DNA from: Ascidia mentula
Taxonomy: Eukaryota; Chordata; Ascidiacea; Phlebobranchia; Ascidiidae
Direction of reading: 5' to 3'
Assembly (NCBI GenBank): GCA_947561715.1
Contig: OX387203.1
Location: forward strand, 12,710,001 to 12,774,000
DNA: 64,000 nucleotides
Both the position numbers and the translations under genes were made by a program. The stretch's first letter is position 1. The number at the start of each line of letters is the position of its first letter. Below are positions 46,105-58,237 of the stretch, one piece after another. The notes under the pieces were generated by a model. That model was given only the letters and a program-made list of their open reading frames with translations, had not been told where the DNA came from and did no database searches.

Positions 46105-46339
46105 TGTAACGTATGATATCTATGTTATAAAAATCTTGGGGTTGAGATTATTGTGCGTTTTTGGGTCTTGAAAAACTGGGTAGATACATTGACCACATAA
46201 CGGGGGCATCGACGCAAACCAGATTATGACGTCACAATCGCTTTTAACAATGGACAAGGTTGTGCGTGCGTCAAATGTGCGTGAAGTGCGCTGTAGTCTG
46301 AAACGTGTCAACTGAACCGTGAATGTTTTGAAGAATATA

Positions 46340-48512
46340 ATGTGGGTTGGGCCCAGATTTCAGTTATGGTGTAGCGTGGAAGCATTAAATCCTCTAATGT
46401 GGGTTGGGCCTAGATTTCAGTTATGGTGTAGCATGGAAGTATTAAATACTCTAATGTGGGTTGGGCCTAGATTTCAGTTATGGTGTAGTCTGGAAGCATT
46501 AAATACTCTAATGTGGGTTGGGCCTAGATTTCAGTTATGGTGTAGCGTGGAAGCATTAAATACTCTAATGTGGGTTGGGCCTAGATTTCAGTTATGGTGT
46601 AGTCTGGAAGTATTAAATACTCTAATGTGGGTTGGGCCTGGATTTCATTTATGGTGTAGCGTGGAAGCATTAAATACTCTAATGTGGGTTGGGCCTAGAT
46701 TTCAGTTATGGTGTAGCGTGGAAGCATTAAATACTCTAACGTGGGTTGGGCCTAGATTTCAGTTATGGTGTAGTCTGGAAGCATTAAATACTCTAATGTG
46801 GGTTGGGCCTAGATTTCATTTATGGTGTAGCGTGGAAGCATTAAATACTCTAATGTGGGTTGGGCCTGGATTTCAGTTATGGTGTAGCGTGGAAGCATTA
46901 AATAGTCTAATGTGGGTTGGGCCTAGATTTCAGTTATGGTGTAGTCTGGAAGCATTAAATACTCTAATGTGGGTTGGGCCTAGATTTCAGTTATGGTGTA
47001 GCGTGGAAGCATTAAATACTCTAATGTGGGTTGGGCCTGGATTTCAGTTATGGTGTAGCGTGGAAGCATTAAATACTCTAATGTGGGTTGGGCCCGGATT
47101 TCAGTTATGGTGTAGCGTGGAAGCATTAAATACTCTAATGTGGGTTGGGCCTAGATTTCAGTTATGGTGTAGCATGGAATTATTAAATACTCTAATGTGG
47201 GTTGGGCCCAGATTTCAGTTATGGTGTATGGTGTAGCGTGGAAGCATTAAATACTCTAATGCGGGTTGGGCCCAGATTTCGGTTATGGTGTAGCGTGGAA
47301 GCATTAAATACTCTAATGCGGGTTGGGCCCAGATTTCGGTTATGGTGTAGCGTGGAAGCATTAAATACTCTAATGTGGGTTGGGCCTGGATTTCAGTTAT
47401 GGTGTAGCGTGGAAGCATTAAATACTCTAATGTGGGTTGGGCCCGGATTTCAGTTATGGTGTAGCGTGGAAGCATTAAATACTCTAATGTGGGTTGGGCC
47501 TAGATTTCAGTTATGGTGTAGCATGGAATTATTAAATACTCTAATGTGGGTTGGGCCCAGATTTCAGTTATGGTGTATGGTGTAGCGTGGAAGCATTAAA
47601 TACTCTAATGCGGGTTGGGCCCAGATTTCAGTTATGGTGTAGCGTGGAAGCATTAAATACTCTAATGTGGTTTGGGCCTAGATTTCGGTTATGGTGTAGC
47701 GTGGAAGCATTAAATACTCTAATGTGGTTTGGGCCTAGATTTCAGTTGTGGTGTAGCGTGGAAGCATTAAATACTCTAATGTGGTTTGGGCCTAGATTTC
47801 AGTTATGGTGTAGTCTGGAAGCATTAAATACTCTAATGTGGTTTGGGCCTAGATTTCAGTTATGGTGTAGTCTGGAAGCATTAAATACTCTAATGTGGGT
47901 TGGGCCTGGATTTCAGTTATGGTGTAGTCTGGAAGCATTAAATACTCTAATGTGGTTTGGGCCTAGATTTCAGTTATGGTGTAGTCTGGAAGCATTAAAT
48001 ACTCTAATGTGGTTTGGGCCTAGATTTCAGTTATGGTGTAGTCTGGAAGCATTAAATACTCTAATGTGGGTTGGGCCTGGATTTCAGTTATGGTGTAGTC
48101 TGGAAGCATTAAATACTCTAATGTGGTTTGGGCCTAGATTTCAGTTGTGGTGTAGCGTGGAAGCATTAAATACTCTAATGTGGTTTGGGCCTAGATTTCA
48201 GTTGTGGTGTAGCGTGGAAGCATTAAATACTCTAATGTGGTTTGGGCCTAGATTTCAGTTATGGTGTAGTCTGGAAGCATTAAATACTCTAATGTGGTTT
48301 GGGCCTAGATTTCAGTTATGGTGTAGCGTGGAAGCATTAAATACTCTAATGTGGTTTGGGCCTAGATTTCAGTTATGGTGTAGTATGGAAGCATTAAATA
48401 CTCTAATGTGGGTTGGGCCTAGATTTCAGTTATGGTGTAGCGTGGAAGCATTAAATACTCTAATGTGGGTTGGGCCTGGATTTCAGTTATGGTGTAGCCT
48501 GGAAGCTTTATG
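46340..48512 (+). repeat. Left TIR array, about 38 units of 57 bp
   Basis: The unit begins ATGTGGGTTGGGCCTAGATT and ends AAGCATTAAATACTCTA. Because 57 is a multiple of three, the array reads through as repeats of MWVGPRFQLWCSVEALNTL in frames of 305, 127 and 323 codons. A 7-bp insertion (an extra TGGTGTA) breaks the frame at about 47225 and again 349 bp later, marking a duplicated block of six units plus 7 bp. Outer units have GTGGGTTGGG and inner units GTGGTTTGGG (V to F), a gradient mirrored in the right array. Confidence 0.95.
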
Positions 48513-48578
48513 TGTAAAATAGAAATTACTTTAATTTGGTTTATTTGTAGTGACCATTTGTATTTATTGTTTATTTAG

Positions 48579-51500
48579 GTTCTGTTCTGCTAAAAATCGA
48601 ATTGATTTTGTGCGAAGAGATGCTTTTTTGTGAAAGAAGTTTCAGTCTTTTGAAAGATGTTGTTGACTCTCATGAGTCTCGGCAATTTCGAAATTGTGTG
48701 CCAATGCCAAAAAATTTAATAATCTCTGAAGGTATTGTTCAACATTGGTAAGATGTAAAACTTTTCTAAATCCTAAAAACTATTTTAATACTTGCTTTAG
48801 CATCCTAAATGAAGTGGCATTCGGTGAGAAGGAATTTACATTCTCAAATACTCTAGAGAAGGTTAGTTATTACGCTGTGAATATTAAAGAATGAAACTTG
48901 CATTGTCACAAATTGGTCTAAGAATCTGTTAAGTAGTAATAAAAGTTCTATGTTCAGGCACATGAACACGTTTTTGTTGTATTATGGAAGTATTTCATTT
49001 GTGCTTTTATTTATTAGTGGTATGGATCCAAACATGAAGCAACAAATATGCTGCATCAATTCAAAAAGTCATGTGCACTAACTTTAAAGTCCCCGTTAAT
49101 TAAATCACACGGTGAGTTTTGTTGTTTGTGGGTGCTTGTTTTCACGATGGTACTGTTTTTTTTTCGAAACCTCTTTTTACGTTTGAAGATGCATGTAAAA
49201 GCTCAGTGCATTGGAATGATGCTGCCATACCATACATAATTACACGTTCAGAGTGCTTTGAATTACTTTGGCATTTTGACCGCCAATCTGAACCAAACAA
49301 ACTATATCAATATGTAATAACCATCTTTGATGTTTTGGTGTTTGCAAAGTTTGAAGGCTTAGTAAGTATACATTTAAATGTTATTAACTATCATTACATT
49401 AATGTCTTGGGCACAGAAGAGAGATATTTTGTGAAGTTTGTGAAGAATGAATTCACTTGTTTAAGTAAAATGGTTAGTAAATTGTATAGCTTAACACAAT
49501 GCTTTGTGCATATGTGTGGTTGTTTATTTTAGCAAAATATATCAGAAGCAGCAAAGGAGAATAGCAAACAAAATTTGCAGGTAATATAAGACTGGTAATT
49601 GGTGCAGTTTATAAATTTAAGTTTAGAGTAAATCCAACAATTGTTGCAGTGGGCTTGTTCAATGACTCAGGCAAATGATTTAGTTGAGAAATTTGAAATC
49701 TCCACATTGACAAAGTTCATTCATTTCTCGAAGAATTCATTTGGTATGATAAAAAAAGGCATGCTTTTTAGCTTAGTTTTACTTATTAAAAGAAAGTTCA
49801 TCAAGCCATAATTGTATGACAATACAAACTGATTACATTTGTGATTTTTTTTAGATATTTTAATAGGTCGCTTGCATTGGGACAGTACATCCACTCCCTA
49901 CATCATAGTACAAACAAAGGTCTTGGAATGCCAACATTCTAAAGATCGCAACAAGATTAAAAATGAAAGGCGTCATGTTGCACCACCTACACATGTAAGT
50001 GACTTTATGTTTTCTATGATAAAATATTGAAACCCCTTTGATCAGTTGCAAGATCATCCAAATCCTTGCAAAAAACATTTGTGTATTCAAGGGACCAAAA
50101 AAACTAACTGCAAGGCAAAAATTGTAATTCAGGAAATTATGAAGTTTCCACAGTTTCAGGTACTTCAACTTGTTTGAATCTAATTTTATTTAGTTGGATA
50201 TCAATAATTTCTTCTGTAATATGATTAGATAATCTCGAAATGTAAATCTAAAATGGACAAGACAAGTGTTGTTGTAAAAGATTTGCTGCAAAACAACGAT
50301 AAGCACTTGCTAAAGCAACAAACTTACAGTGTTTGCTTTCCATCTCAGGATGACCACACCGGTCATGTTTTAGGGGAAGTAAGGATGTTATTTAAATTAA
50401 ATGTTTACTTTTGAACTGTTTATTTACCATATTACATATTTTAAGGCTGCTGGTTTCCTTCGACCTGTTGATCAAAGAATAATTGCCAAAATAGATCAAT
50501 TGGTTACAGAAGGTGTATGCAGTATTGAGGAAATTCTTAGAAGCCTAAAACATTATGTTGCCCATGAACTTTTTCAAAATGATACCCCACCATCTACTTC
50601 AAACAGGAGATTTTATCCAACAAAAAAGGACATTCAAAGTCATTATTACCGAGTATTTTGTAAACACAGATTTGCAAAAATTGATCAAACTAATGTCCAG
50701 TGCTTGGTGGATGAATGAGTGAAGGCAGGAGATGCCAATGACAAAATATATTTCCGGCCATTCATTGCTAACATGGAACCTGAAGTAGTTGATGGAGAAA
50801 CAGCACCAGTCATTCAATCTGAACAAACCATGCTGTTTATCCATCAGTTTGCATGGCAGCGTAGATTGCTTCTGCGCTACGGCCAAGACATTTGTCTAAT
50901 GGATGCTACCTACAAGACATCCAAATATGCTCTCCCATTGTTTTTTCTCTGTGTGAAGACAAATGTTGGCTATCAAGTTGTTGCCAGTTTCATTACACAG
51001 AATGAAAGACAATTGGACATTGAAGAGGCACTGAAAATATTGAAAGAATGGACTCCTGCATGGCAACCATCATTTTTTATGGTAGATAAATGTGATGCTG
51101 AGATCCATGCCATTGAAAGCATTTTTACAGGTTAAAGTTCTGCATCAAATATACATGTACCACATATGTAAAACGAATTTTTGCCAAATGCATATGAGAA
51201 GTGAGTGTACCTCCACTAAAACATTTATGGTTATATGCAAGAACATGCAATCAAAATTAATCAATAAATTTTACTTTGAGCAGATACAAACAACAAAACA
51301 AGAGATCTTCTGGCAATTACAGAAGTTACAACGCTGAGGTTCCCAGCTTTCTTCGAAACCGACCAAGAAAATTGGTAAAACATTGTATAAAACGTATCGG
51401 AGAAACTACAAACATTCAGGCAAGTTCTATATGTAGAAAAGGGGACTTGTTCACTGTATTAAGCAGTTCCTCTTCTGAAATATACACCATTAAATTTGGC

Positions 51501-51842
51501 ACCGAAAGAGATTTTCCAAAGTGTACATGTCATGATTTTTTACACAATTTTTTACCATGCAAACACATGTTTGCAATTTTTAACAAGTATGCAGATGTTG
51601 GATGGCATAGTCTGCCAGATTGGTACTCCAATTCTGTTTACATGGTTTTGGATCCGGTTGTTGTGAACAAATTGTCAGCTGAAACTGTTTGTGATACTGT
51701 GGTCAAAACACAAGACATCAAGAATTCCTCCACAAACCAATCAATTTCTCAACCTGAAAACATTGTAACTGACGACAAAACCTGCGGTACTGACAACAAA
51801 ACCTCAGATCGCAAACAAAGCCATCAAAAGTTATTGATTTAA
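48579..51842 (+). CDS. MULE transposase gene (CaRF-like region, MULE catalytic part, SWIM finger)
   Basis: Several short exons with GT/AG borders (about 48579 to 50170) lead into a region like the CaRF/ALS2CR8 domain, with the pieces CKAKIVIQEIMKFPQF, GHVLGE, AAGFLRPVDQRIIAKI and SNRRFYPTKKDIQSHYYR (50100-50660). The MULE domain follows at 50880-51125: LMDATYKTSKYALPLFF with the first catalytic Asp, KTNVGYQVVASF, FMVDKCDAEIHAIE with the second. The stretch that should carry the third acidic residue is missing before the SWIM finger CTCHDFLHNFLPCKHMF (51526-51585). An in-frame stop at 50716 (expected Trp in LVDEW) and the missing segment suggest that this copy cannot transpose by itself. In the intact family the product would cut and join transposon ends in the nucleus. 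Confidence 0.75.
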
Positions 51843-52985
51843 TGAAGCATTTGATAGACCTTTCATATGATGTCAGTTCCAAGCAGGTTTTGGATGAAGG
51901 CATTTCTGATGGCAATGCCATGGTGGCTAAGTTTTCTAAAGCATGTTCATACGATTCTGGGTTTAGAATTACTCAACCTCCAGAACTTAAGTCATTGAAA
52001 AGGAAGCGAAAAACAACACCTTCTGAAAATACTGTCCATGATGAGTTGCCCCGCAAGCGACCAAAGCCCAATCCATTTTCATCACGGGTTGGACAATTTG
52101 CCAACCTTATGCAGCCGCTTGTATGGATATTGTTCGGAACAAACACTCAATGATGCAAAAAAACATCACAGCCCATGTTACCGGTTACAAAGCTTCTGGT
52201 GCAATTTTAAAAAACGGCCCTCATTCAATTTCTTTGTTGGAGTTAAAATCTCTGGATGATGCATTGCCACCAGCTGAAGTTTGCGAGCTTAAAAAGCATG
52301 ACAGCAGATTTAATGTTGGTTGGCTTTATGATGAAGTCATTAACAGCTACTTGTGGCGATTAACTGGTGTGCACCAACACACACTTTATGTTTGTTCGAC
52401 AGTGGCTCAAATATTACAAAGAAAAGCTTCAATTAAAAAAGTTTGGGAAGGGATAAATTTGCAAGGGAAACAAACACTGTTTATACCTTGGAACTCTTCA
52501 GGCTTCCACTGGGTTTTGCTTGTAGTTGACATCCCTGGTCGAAAAATGCTGTACATAGACCCAGTAGCAATGCCTTGTGTAAAAACAGACAGCAATGTTC
52601 AAACTGCAAAAGCTATGGTGAATTGTCTAATGGCAACAAAGTTTGGTTGGAAAATTAATACTGTGGAAATACCACACAAAACAAAACAGCCAGATGGATC
52701 AAGCTGTGGAGTGATGATATGTATGTATGCAAAATGGCTGGCAACTGGAGAAAAACTTGTGCAAAATGTTTGTACCTACAGCTATAGACTTGAAATGTTA
52801 AGGGAAATTGCTGGCAAGTGTCTTCAAGGCACAAATGAAATAAGTATGTGGAGATGAAGGCGACAATCCCCTGAAAAAAGTTTGGATTGAGTGCACTCGA
52901 TGTGGACAGTGGTTTCACATCATGTGTGTTGGTTTTTCAGAGAAGCAAGCAAAAAAAGATAAATATTTTGTGTGCACATTGTAAA
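51842..52985 (+). CDS. Ulp1-type cysteine protease plus PHD finger, MULE C-terminal region
   Basis: Follows the SWIM region after a frame change; the two were probably one protein. Basic linker with nuclear-signal-like KRKRK (about 52000). From 52123 a 244-codon frame carries a C48 (Ulp1/SENP) domain: GWLYDEVINSYLWRL, the catalytic His in FHWVLLVVD (about 128), Asp in LYIDPVA (about 146), Gln in KQPDGSSC (about 189) and Cys in SSCGVMIC (about 195). All four are present. A second frame change leads to a PHD-like finger, WIECTRCGQWFHIMC, whose last CAHC pair (about 52972) lies in another frame beyond an A-run. Ulp1 domains remove SUMO-like modifiers; in plant MULEs they are carried by Kaonashi-type elements. 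A role in the transposition complex is inference. Confidence 0.78.
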
Positions 52986-53084
52986 TCAAACAACATTACA
53001 ATCTGTTAAACAAATAAGAACACAAGCCAAATGAAATTTATTCACTATACCATAACAACCACAATGTCCCATTTTTTTTAGTTT

Positions 53085-53425
53085 TATCACTTCTGCAAAG
53101 TGAATGTAATACCGTACCTTTTGGGTTTTGGCCCAAAGGGTGTAACACTCTTGGAGTGACGGTAAACCTGACCAATCGGGACTCTACCTGAGAGGTGTAA
53201 CACTCCTGCGAAGTGAATTTCCTACCATACCTTTGGGTTTTGACCCTAATGGTGTAACACTCGTAGAGTGATGGTAAACCTGACCAATCGGGACTCTACC
53301 TGAGAGGTGTAACACTTTCGCAGAGTGAATTTCATACCATACCTTGCGATGGTAAAACTGACCAATCAGGCTTCAACCTGAGAGGTGTAACACTTCTGCA
53401 GAGTGATTTTAAGACCATACTATTT
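53085..53425. repeat. Three-copy tandem repeat of 75-120 bp inside the MULE
   Basis: The block GAGAGGTGTAACACT..GCAGAGTGAATTTCATACCATACC occurs around 53190, 53303 and 53378, with an earlier variant at 53085. CTGACCAATCGGGACTCTACC lies between the copies. It is non-coding and sits just after the stop of the protease gene, so it may form the 3' untranslated region or a terminator-like structure. Confidence 0.7.
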
Positions 53426-54490
53426 AAGTATTGTGTTTTCTTCAACACGTATTATGTTGTTCAACCCAGTTTCATATGGCTACTGGCGAGGCGTCTGGGT
53501 TATCAAAAATGCCAACGACCACATGGAAAAGCCTCCTGGGCGTGGTAGGAATTTTTCAAACACAACATAAAAATGCAGTCCATCAACATATAAGCAAACA
53601 TTATTTATTTGGAAAGCCTGAAATGCACTTAGTTCGCCATAAAAAAGAGAAATCGATTACAAAACAAATAGCACCATTTTTGTAGCGACATGTGACAAAG
53701 AGTGCAATGTTTGTGCCCAAAGGAAGTTCATTTAAATTTGCATTGTCTGGCAGTGGCAGAAACAGTTTATTGCATCACAATTAGCATACACAAAACAATA
53801 TATATAACACAAATGCTGTTTAACATAAAATAGTGTGTTTTATAAAGATTTCAACTTTGTAAAAAATATGTTTGGAAATTTGTATCTGGTTTCTTGCAGC
53901 TTATTTAGGGTGGCTTCTATCTTTGCAGAATCTGCAGTGTTAAAGCTTTGTTACAATTTTGTTTTATCAATCAAGAATCATACAGGAATATCCATTTTTT
54001 TAAATCCAATGTAAACAATATACGAAGTGAAAATATTTTGTAGTATGACGACAGACACTATCATATCCATAGTATGATATAAAATAATTTCATTTTTGGG
54101 AAGGAGTAAAAAGGACCACACAAAATGAACTTTAAAGACTTAACAGTAATTCTTACCTTATTCAAATTATACTTTATTTCCACAGATGTAATATTCCAAC
54201 AGAAGCATTGCAGATGTTCAGCTGAAATTCAAGTAGCATTTAAAATTGTTTTTTTTAAATAAAATCATAACAAACCTTTTGATTTGTGTCTTCTGTTTAA
54301 CTTGTCGCTTCAAATGTCATTTGTCTTTTGTTGAAACCAACATAGTCAAAATAGAATGACCTAAATTATGTTAATGGATCTAAACACATTGGCAACATGC
54401 TTCATTCTGATGGTCTGAGCTTGTGCAAAGTAAGCAAAACCAAAACATAATAGTTCCAGTCATACACCAACCCACAGAGTATAAAGTTTT
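53426..54490. other. MULE interior, no gene seen
   Basis: AT-rich sequence between the protease gene and the right TIR. The frame at 53431-53685 (84 codons) is not recognisable. Confidence 0.5.
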
Positions 54491-54494
54491 TAAG

Positions 54495-57400
54495 CTACAC
54501 TATAACTGAAATCTGGGCCCAACCCACATTAGAGCATTTAATGCTTCCACGCTACACCATAACTGAAATCTAGGCCCAAACCACATTAGAGTATTTAATG
54601 CTTCCAGACTACACCATAACTGAAATCTAGGCCCAAACCACATTAGAGTATTTAATGCTTCCACGCTACACCACAACTGAAATCTAGGCCCAAACCACAT
54701 TAGACTATTTAATGCTTCCAGACTACACCATAACTGAAATCTAGGCCCAAACCACATTAGAGTATTTAATGCTTCCAGACTACACCATAACTGAAATCTA
54801 GGCCCAAACCACATTAGAGTATTTAATGCTTCCACGCTACACCACAACTGAAATCTAGGCCCAAACCACATTAGAGTATTTAATGCTTCCACGCTACACC
54901 ATAACTGAAATCTAGGCCCAAACCACATTAGAGTATTTAATGCTTCCAGACTACACCATAACTGAAATCTAGGCCCAAACCACATTAGAGTATTTAATGC
55001 TTCCAGACTACACCATAACTGAAATCTAGGCCCAAACCACATTAGAGTATTTAATGCTTCCACGCTACACCACAACTGAAATCTAGGCCCAAACCACATT
55101 AGAGTATTTAATGCTTCCACGCTACACCATAACTGAAATCTAGGCCCAAACCACATTAGAGTATTTAATGCTTCCAGACTACACCATAACTGAAATCTAG
55201 GCCCAAACCACATTAGAGTATTTAATGCTTCCACGCTACACCATAACCGAAATCTGGGCCCAACCCGCATTAGAGTATTTAATGCTTCCACGCTACACCA
55301 TAACCGAAATCTGGGCCCAACCCACATTAGAGTATTTAATGCTTACACGCTACACCATAACTGAAATCTGGGCCCAACCCACATTAGAGTATTTAATGCT
55401 TCCACGCTACACCATCACTGAAATCTGGGCCCAACCCACATTAGAGTATTTAATGCTTCCACGCTACACCATAACTGAAATCTGGGCCCAACCCACATTA
55501 GAGTATTTAATGCTTCCACGCTACACCATCACTGAAATCTAGGCCCAACCCACATTAGAGTATTTAATGCTTCCACGCTACACCATAACTGAAATCTGGG
55601 CCCAACCCACATTAGAGTATTTAATGCTTCCACGCTACACCATAACTGAAATCTAGGCCCAACCCACATTAGAGTATTTAATGCTTCCACGCTACACCAT
55701 AACTGAAATCCAGGCCCAACCCACATTAGAGTATTTAATGCTTCCACGCTACACCATAACTGAAATCTAGGCCCAACCCACATTAGAGTATTTAATGCTT
55801 CCACGTTACACCATAAATGAAATCTAGGCCCAACCCACATTAGAGTATTTAATGCTTCCACGCTACACCATAACTGAAATCTGGGCCCAACCCACATTAG
55901 AGTATTTAATGCTTCCACGCTACACCATAACTGAAATCTAGGCCCAACCCACATTAGAGTATTTAATGCTTCCAGACGACACCATAACTGAAATCTAGGC
56001 CCAACCCACATTAGAGTATTTAATGCTTCCACGCTACACCATAACTGAAATCTGGGCCCAACCCACATTACAGTATTTAATACTTCCAGACTACACCATA
56101 ACTGAAATCTAGGCCCAACCCACATTAGAGTATTTAATGCTTCCACGCTACACCATAACTGAAATCTGGGCCCAACCCACATTAGAGTATTTAATGCTTA
56201 CACGCTACACCATAACTGAAATCTAGGCCCAACCCACATTAGAGTATTTAATGCTTCCACGCTACACCATAACTGAAATCTGGGCCCAACCCACATTAGA
56301 GTATTTAATGCTTACACGCTACACCATAACTGAAATCTGGGCCCAACCCACATTAGAGTATTTAATGCTTCCACGCTACACCATAACTGAAATCTAGGCC
56401 CAACCCACATTAGAGTATTTAATGCTTCCAGACGACACCATAACTGAAATCTAGGCCCAACCCACATTAGAGTATTTAATGCTTCCACGCTACACCATAA
56501 CTGAAATCTGGGCCCAACCCACATTAGAGTATTTAATACTTCCAGACTACACCATAACTGAAATCTAGGCCCAACCCACATTAGAGTATTTAATGCTTCC
56601 ACGCTACACCATAACTGAAATCTGGGCCCAACCCACATTAGAGTATTTAATGCTTACACGCTACACCATAACTGAAATCTAGGCCCAACCCACATTAGAG
56701 TATTTAATGCTTCCACGCTACACCATAACTGAAATCTGGGCCCAACCCACATTAGAGTATTTAATGCTTACACGCTACACCATAACTGAAATCTAGGCCC
56801 AACCCACATTAGAGTATTTAATGCTTCCACGCTACACCATAACTGAAATCTGGGCCCAACCCACATTAGAGTATTTAATGCTTACACGCTACACCATAAC
56901 TGAAATCTGGGCCCAACCCACATTAGAGTATTTAATGCTTACACGCTGCACCATAACTGAAATCTAGGCCCAACCCACATTAGAGTATTTAATGCTTCCA
57001 GACGATACCATAACTGAAATCTAGGCCCAACCCACATTAGAGTATTTAATGCTTCCACGCTACACCATAACTGAAATCCAGGCCCAACCCACATTAGAGT
57101 ATTTAATGCTTCCACGCTACACCATAACTGAAATCTAGGCCCAACCCACATTAGAGTATTTAATGCTTCCACGTTACACCATAAATGAAATCTAGGCCCA
57201 ACCCACATTAGAGTATTTAATGCTTCCACGCTACACCATAACTGAAATCTGGGCCCAACCCACATTAGAGTATTTAATGCTTCCACGCTACACCATAACT
57301 GAAATCTAGGCCCAACCCACATTAGAGTATTTAATGCTTCCAGACGACACCATAACTGAAATCTAGGCCCAACCCACATTAGAGTATTTAATGCTTCCAC

Positions 57401-57893
57401 GCTACACCATAACTGAAATCTGGGCCCAACCCACATTAGAGTATTTAATGCTTCCACGCTACACCATAACTGAAATCTAGGCCCAACCCACATTAGAGTA
57501 TTTAATGCTTCCACGTTACACCATAAATGAAATCTAGACCCAACCCACATTAGAGTATTTAATGCTTCCACGCTACACCATAACTGAAATCTGGGCCCAA
57601 CCCACATTAGAGTATTTAATGCTTCCACGCTACACCATAACTGAAATCTAGGCCCAACCCACATTAGAGTATTTAATGCTTCCACGCTACACCATAACTG
57701 AAATCCAGGCCCAACCCACATTAGAGTATTTAATACTTCCACGCTACACCATAACTGAAATCTAGGCCCAACCCACATTAGAGTATTTAATGCTTCCACG
57801 TTACACCATAAATGAAATCTAGGCCCAACCCACATTAGAGTATTTAATGCTTCCACACTACACCATAACTGAAATCTGGGCCCAACCCACATT
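54495..57893 (-). repeat. Right TIR array, about 60 units of 57 bp
   Basis: The same 57-bp unit as the left array, in opposite orientation. Minus-strand frames of 275, 217, 108 and 324 codons read as MWVGPRFQLWC / SVEALNTL repeats, with F in place of V in the inner units (54.55-55.21 kb). Marker variants recur in the same order several times: CCAGACGACACC at 55973, 56428 and 57341 (and a close variant at 56998), and CACGTTACACCATAAATG at 55802, 57172, 57512 and 57797. This shows higher-order duplications of several units at once. Confidence 0.95.
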
Positions 57894-58237
57894 ATATTCT
57901 TCAAAACATTCACGGTTCAGTTGACACGTTTCAGACTACAGCGCACGTCACGCACATTTGACGCACGCACAACCTTGTCCATTGTTAAAAGCGATTGTGA
58001 CGTCATAATCTGGTTTGCGTCGTTGCCCCCGTTATGTGGTTAATGTATATACCTGAAAAACTGTCTTCGGATGTTATGGTAGTTGTCGAGACTATCGTTA
58101 TTAATAGGATATTTCACATGATTAAACAATCGTTTCTGATCTGGTGACGAACCTTCTGTGGCGAAACATTACAGTGGTGGCAGCGGTGACCATATCAGAA
58201 GTGAACAGTTGCAACTTCATTGGGCTGGTGAATCAAC

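Follow-up and report, generated by a model that had tools for sequence, protein, structure and literature searches.

A defective MULE transposon with tandem-array ends in Ascidia mentula belongs to a young, recently mobile family

The window analysed here, a stretch of 64 000 nucleotides from the tunicate Ascidia mentula, contains at positions 46179-58053 a MULE-type transposon of 11 875 bp, flanked directly by the duplicated sequence TGAAAAACTG. It is a defective copy, with a broken transposase gene, in a young, multi-copy and recently mobile family. Taking the evidence together, we consider it very probable that this description is correct as a whole and that the long tandem arrays at the ends are remodelled rapidly and are most likely accessory. 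Array-ended elements of this build have already been described in animals; what is new is a close sister family with plain ends in the same genome.

Results

Structure of the element

The boundaries proposed in the initial annotation, an 11.9-kb unit between exact 10-bp duplications, hold to the base. Its account of a unique end followed on each side by an array of 57-bp repeats, about 38 copies on one side and 60, inverted, on the other, was likewise right in coordinates and counts. The two 160-bp ends of the element are mismatched at 4 of 160 positions. The parts are as follows.

46169-46178 (unstranded): left target-site duplication TGAAAAACTG, perfect over 10 bp
46179-46337 (+): left unique terminal inverted repeat (TIR), 159 bp, the same sequence matched at at least 39 genomic ends
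46338-48510 (+): left array, 37.9 copies of a 57-bp unit, 94% match, from tandem-repeat analysis
48511-54493 (+): interior with the broken transposase gene
54494-57894 (-): right array, 59.7 copies of the 57-bp unit, 95% match, inverted relative to the left array
57895-58053 (-): right unique terminal inverted repeat
58054-58063 (unstranded): right target-site duplication TGAAAAACTG, perfect over 10 bp

A MULE transposase had been predicted in the interior, and Pfam domains above cut-off bear this out. On the plus strand, ALS2CR8, ZSWIM1-3 RNase H-like/MULE, SWIM and Ulp1 (C48) domains all exceed their cut-offs. The MULE transposase domain PF10551 scores 37.1 bits against a cut-off of 27.6 (E-value 4.3e-9), while the PHD finger PF00628 lies just above its cut-off of 24 in the window (24.7 bits, 2.3e-5) and reaches 4.2e-6 in the copy designated e9. 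Less damaged relatives encode, by Pfam, ALS2CR8/CARF-like, MULE RNase H-like, SWIM, Ulp1 and PHD domains. In the window copy, the gene and its 3′ region are arranged thus.

49869-50393 (+): ALS2CR8/CARF-like domain, first half (profile positions 9-146), with stops in frame read as X
50461-50646 (+): ALS2CR8/CARF-like domain, second half (profile positions 167-228)
50719-51135 (+): RNase H-like/MULE catalytic exon (PF21056, PF10551), with a TGA between this exon and the preceding open reading frame
51173 (unstranded): site of approximately 465 bp absent relative to copies such as e9
51261-51842 (+): open reading frame with SWIM zinc finger
52045-52857 (+): open reading frame with Ulp1 (C48) peptidase domain
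52844-52978 (+): PHD-finger stretch in a shifted frame
53088-53420 (+): 3′ region of 112/78-bp imperfect repeats, present in several other copies too
53464-53556 (+): conserved non-coding motif common to related MULE families

The gap of approximately 465 bp relative to e9 falls between the MULE and SWIM exons. The SWIM-Ulp1-PHD frame, a single 612 aa in e2, e3, e6, e9 and e10, is reduced in the window copy to fragments of 270 and 193 aa. Since this copy is defective, it presumably moved before its gene decayed or with the help of another copy.

A young, multi-copy family

The mitochondrial COX1 of the assembly (contig C79) fits a tunicate host: of its 16 AGA/AGG codons, 13 align with glycine in bovine COX1, two with alanine, one with glutamine and none with serine, and AGR is read as glycine in the ascidian mitochondrial code (NCBI table 13). 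The 195.8-Mb assembly was searched with window positions 46189-46400 as the end query; the counts of listed matches are lower bounds, and the window copy is referred to as e1. At least 39 end matches were found, comprising 15 convergent pairs and nine singles, and with 30 of the matches falling in convergent pairs the structure of the window element is not a product of chance. Among all 15 pairs, duplications are perfect in 11 (9 bp in ten pairs and 10 bp in the window copy), near-perfect in two (e12, where 8 of 9 bases agree, and C1:14786191, where the 9 bp are offset by one base) and absent from two, e11 and e18. These lengths fall within the 8-11 bp characteristic of the MULE superfamily. 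The 10-bp duplication in the initial annotation is thus true of the window copy, but the family norm is 9 bp and the window copy is the sole 10-bp case. The assembly search that it had recommended returned at least 15 pairs with shared ends, most of them with 9-10-bp duplications, and array lengths varied among copies. The genome holds 49 MULE matches, among them those of e1, e2, e3, e5, e6, e9, e10 and e12.

Evidence for recent movement comes from e9 (C70:20310847) and e10 (C70:19544033), which lie 766 kb apart in opposite orientation and match at every position over 10 521 bp, a span that takes in the arrays. Their duplications differ (GTGCACTTG and CTAAAAGAG). Identical elements at different sites show that the arrays travel within the element and that movement was recent. 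The tandem array into whose margin e9 has inserted has units of about 43-44 bp (L030 1-547).

When ten elements were compared with the fetched loci, a paralogous empty site was found for e2 only, and none for the window copy. The e2 element sits in sequence akin to a MULE transposase gene. When its flanks are joined through a single AAGGAGGAC, the resulting sequence aligns, junction included, with an uninterrupted site in copies F1 and F2 of a related family, F, described below. The alignment spans a 79-bp segment at 92.5%, and the nine site bases read AAGGAGGAT in both F1 and F2. The initial annotation had suggested an empty-site comparison as a check on the duplications, and at e2 it supports them.

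Arrays confined to element copies

The initial annotation had also raised the objection that the repeat might be a genome-wide satellite unrelated to the ends. A three-unit query of the 57-bp repeat gave 426 matches, and among the part of these that was listed the repeat occurs only at or beside element copies or at truncated ones. Two arrays, at C2:12160204 and C2:12215185, lack a terminal match and could be taken to favour an independent satellite that a transposon had hit or come to neighbour, with the duplication coincidental. However, both adjoin element interior at 97% identity and so are truncated copies. Moreover, the array starts right behind the unique end in 11 copies, and e9 and e10 carry their arrays whole. 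On the matches listed, we regard an independent satellite as almost certainly the wrong explanation. Errors in assembly are a concern for array length, as long tandem arrays are prone to them; against this, each arm is made up of numerous different unit types, whose order is particular to the element. The identity of e9 and e10 fits faithful assembly, yet could also arise from one sequence used twice. On balance, array lengths that are merely assembly errors seem very unlikely.

Array lengths and remodelling

Array copy numbers were determined by TRF and are given in contig order.

e1: 37.9/59.7 copies
e2: 20.2/64.7 copies
e4: 8.3/131.5 copies
e5: 29.7/101.9 copies
e6: 18.7/26.9 copies
e9: 37.9/25.9 copies
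e10: 25.9/37.9 copies
e11: 37.1/25.7 copies

The arrays of e3, e7 and e12 are interrupted or rearranged. Arm lengths across the family range from approximately 0.3 to 131 units, in agreement with the unequal and variable lengths anticipated from the window copy. Arrays of the 57-bp unit stand behind both ends in 11 of the 13 copies read end to end, the exceptions being e16 and e18. The former has about 0.3 and 4-5 units with a perfect duplication, AGGAAATGA, and its arrays could have been lost after insertion. At a further locus, C71:16405556-16426508, 57-bp matches occur as far as 21 kb from the end; their positions suggest that one end is followed by a right arm of up to approximately 20 kb made of 57-bp units, the intervening stretch being known from the matches alone.

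The interiors of e2, e3, e5, e6, e9 and e10 are approximately 97.8-99.6% identical to that of e1 over the main blocks, and e2 has one 177-bp interior block at 96.0%. Across 14 arms of seven elements, the longest exact run common to the arms of different elements is 332 bp. Exact block duplications are present inside arms, of 1280 bp in the right arm of e4 and 852 bp in the right arm of e5. Unit types are shared more often between an element's own two arms (mean Jaccard 0.155) than between elements (0.095; permutation p 0.00425, seven elements), in a test that left out e10, as a duplicate of e9, and the interrupted e3, e7 and e12. The effect is modest, and only e1, e4 and e11 possess unit types that recur in their two arms while being absent from every other element.

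A sister family with plain ends

Over the catalytic exon, seven genomic matches show 88-89% DNA identity, and two of them, C69:21600773 and C52:1213928, represent family F. At the protein level F and e9 are 90% identical over the catalytic exon and 73% over the SWIM-Ulp1-PHD frame. An F element measures approximately 7.2 kb and ends in simple TIRs, each about 285 bp, and both copies read have 9-bp duplications (GATAATAAC and ATATTTTTT); no tandem array was reported inside the F element. As F has 9-bp duplications and no arrays, it transposed without them. After the two split, therefore, either the window's family acquired arrays or F lost them.

For more distant relatives at 85% (L046) and 78% (L047 and L054), no inverted TIRs were recognized within the 9-10 kb fetched, and the 3′ part of L046 is inverted and rearranged. 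A 99-bp array of 5.3 copies follows the 3′ motif in L047 (7383-7903), with no inverted partner in 10 kb.

A second array-ended family

The left array of e3 contains a 14.3-kb element with inverted arrays of its own, of 149 and 47 copies of a 42-bp unit. A duplicated stretch of 8-9 bp from the 57-bp array, CATTTATG(G), stands on either side of it. MULE and Ulp1 domains are above cut-off in this element, and a PHD match falls below it (0.012). Its terminus has 52 matches in the genome, including a pair at C2:9388069/9389521 with the duplication CGTGAGTCG. The open frames of the 42-bp element gave no BLASTP match at 1e-3 to e9 or F1. With no BLASTP relationship and a different unit, array ends are present in two distant MULE families of one genome. 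In a 27-kb stretch at C70:13814249-13841104, five close inverted pairs of the 42-bp family terminus have starts approximately 170 bp apart; these could be miniature or tandemly amplified derivatives.

Discussion

Role of the arrays

The transposase of the window's family most likely recognizes the 159-bp unique ends and, judging from what is known of such families, would cut at 5′-GGT/GGA. Insertion would then generate a 9-bp duplication (10 bp for the window copy), in keeping with the duplications and the one empty site found. The 57-bp arrays, placed just inside the unique ends, are carried along with the element, as in e9 and e10. They change more quickly from copy to copy than the interior does, through the duplication and deletion of blocks and some exchange between an element's own arms. 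Unequal exchange, slippage or gap repair may provide the route, and the block duplications and the excess of unit types shared between own arms are its observed side. The arrays would be free to grow and possibly offer weak extra binding sites for the transposase. As the plain-ended sister family transposed, arrays are probably dispensable for cutting and joining, although the independence of F from arrays need not extend to the window's family. The plain ends of F and the unrelated 42-bp arrays together indicate that arrays are labile and recurrent, and probably accessory.

The arrays may alternatively be maintained by selection, with units derived from an ancestral terminus serving as extra transposase-binding sites that strengthen binding. 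The initial annotation had proposed that the arrays may multiply such sites. On its reverse strand the 57-bp unit aligns with the extreme terminus of F (TTTCAGTT..GGTGT-AG.GTGG, score 24-25), a weak likeness that would favour binding sites. A score of 25 equalled the maximum of 300 shuffles, and in further tests the score was reached in 2 of 3000 and in 2 and 0 of 2000, counts that are uncorrected for the several comparisons made. In the 42-bp family, pseudo-repeats begin right at the terminus and have short words, such as TTACGGA and CTAAGGAAA, in common with that family's unit; the 42-bp unit is somewhat similar to its own terminus, with a score reached by 22 of 3000 and 29 of 2000 shuffles. 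The presence of arrays in two families that do not match each other by BLASTP points the same way. However, the F-like units point opposite to the end that they follow, five of 926 other segments score equally (at least one of these lies in the e9 interior and is a remnant of an array) and F transposed with plain ends. A link between the 57-bp unit and its own 159-bp end is unsupported, since the scores of two variants were reached by 1546 and 114 of 2000 shuffles. We therefore view selected binding sites as a rather unlikely account of the arrays. A bolder version, in which MULEs with Ulp1 and PHD domains repeatedly invent array ends from the terminal binding sequence, and the array is a fast-turnover antenna for the transposase helped by exchange between arms, strikes us as less likely still.

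The arrays could also be minisatellite passengers, functionless by-products that slippage and gap repair leave near the ends. Arms of approximately 0.3-131 units with strong left-right asymmetry, block duplications within arms and the absence of arrays from F are all in line with this. On the other hand, the architecture recurs in the second MULE-Ulp1 family and in the Rehavkus-1_TC, Tm1 and FB4 elements discussed below, which is more than a by-product obviously predicts, and arrays at both ends are the rule among the copies read. We put a pure passenger role at a little under an even chance. Overall, an accessory or passenger role is more likely than one as binding sites.

Comparison with known elements

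The initial annotation knew of no described animal MULE of this structure, a statement that the literature overturns: Rehavkus-1_TC (PMC10218199) and Tm1 (PMC3169594) share the build, and FB4 is probably a MULE (PMC8277862). Rehavkus elements, in the accessible text of PMC6446971, have 9-bp duplications, a MULE-related transposase, a PHD finger and a terminal minisatellite, as in the window's family, with the minisatellite placed ahead of the 3′ TIR only. Rehavkus-1_TC of Tribolium (PMC10218199) is described as 9.5 kb long, its inverted termini holding a 164-bp satellite, mostly of five and eight monomers, compared with up to 131 in the window's family. Hosts reported in the text available are arthropods and annelids, whereas ours is a tunicate. 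The 9-bp duplications (perfect in 10 of 15 pairs), the PHD finger and the end minisatellite were all found in the window's family, so the element is Rehavkus-like with unusually long arrays, features having been compared by description rather than by sequence.

Tm1 of Meloidogyne, a Phantom-type MULE with tandem repeats of approximately 14 bp in its TIRs (PMC3169594, in part), resembles the window's family as an animal MULE with composite TIRs, variable unequal repeats and mostly 9-bp (8-10) duplications. It differs in its unit of 13-15 bp and in having FLYWCH and MULE domains, the available text mentioning neither Ulp1 nor PHD. In the part of PMC6446971 available, the FLYWCH zinc finger is optional in Phantom MULEs; no match to it at E-values up to 0.1 was found in the three plus-strand frames of the window interior and e9. 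FB4 of Drosophila, argued to be a MULE in the accessible part of PMC8277862, and FB-NOF share repetitive foldback TIRs and 9-10-bp duplications with the window's family. Compared by description only, they differ in a TIR of approximately 700 bp and in being non-autonomous. Tetris of Drosophila virilis (PMC4079207, in part) has foldback TIRs with tandem repeats and 8-10-bp duplications, and the Mutator superfamily has been suggested for it; according to the same text, its 220-bp unit also occurs in satellite-like arrays and no transposase is known, whereas no satellite spread was seen for the window's family. Galileo of Drosophila likewise has long, internally repetitive TIRs but a P-element transposase, as stated in the accessible portion of PMC3169594. 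No P-type or THAP domain was found by Pfam at E-values up to 0.1 in the three plus-strand frames of the window interior and e9.

In an arthropod survey (PMC13359780), the text puts MULE TIR lengths at 13-1193 bp and one table row gives 1527 bp; with the 159-bp end added, 13 of 16 listed arms of the window's family exceed 1527 bp. No ascidian or tunicate MULE with array ends was named among the titles listed and, as far as that literature shows in the parts available, array-ended MULEs now reach tunicates. Although foldback-type ends were recognized decades ago, there is no agreed account of their role. With an array-bearing family and a plain-ended relative in one genome, young identical copies and an empty site, a direct comparison becomes possible, which could address binding, mobility and genome rearrangement.

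The transposase N-terminus and the 3′ motif

The N-terminal part of the transposase (window positions 49869-50646) matches ALS2CR8 at 3.4e-14. ALS2CR8 is also named CARF, a calcium-responsive transcription factor. The genome has 98 ALS2CR8 matches, some within 1 kb of MULE matches (for example, C2:18414022, C69:16814847 and C70:3133693). It is tempting to speculate that CARF stems from the DNA-binding part of a MULE; a literature search for work tying ALS2CR8 or the calcium-response factor to a transposase found nothing relevant, and one combining ZSWIM, MULE and domesticated found none.

An Rfam scan of the window interior for structured RNA gave three matches, all far under gathering scores. 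Folding of the 3′ motif gave z-scores of -0.52 and -0.73 for the window strands and -0.27 and +0.70 for two relatives, so that a structure is unsupported. A coding role for the motif was rejected on account of indels of 1-2 bases between families. This non-coding sequence of approximately 90 bp (ACCCAGTTTCATATGGCTACTGGCGAGGCGTCTGGGTT..., window positions 53464-53556) is 83-95% conserved outside the window's family, in surroundings that align poorly, and has 40 matches in the genome.
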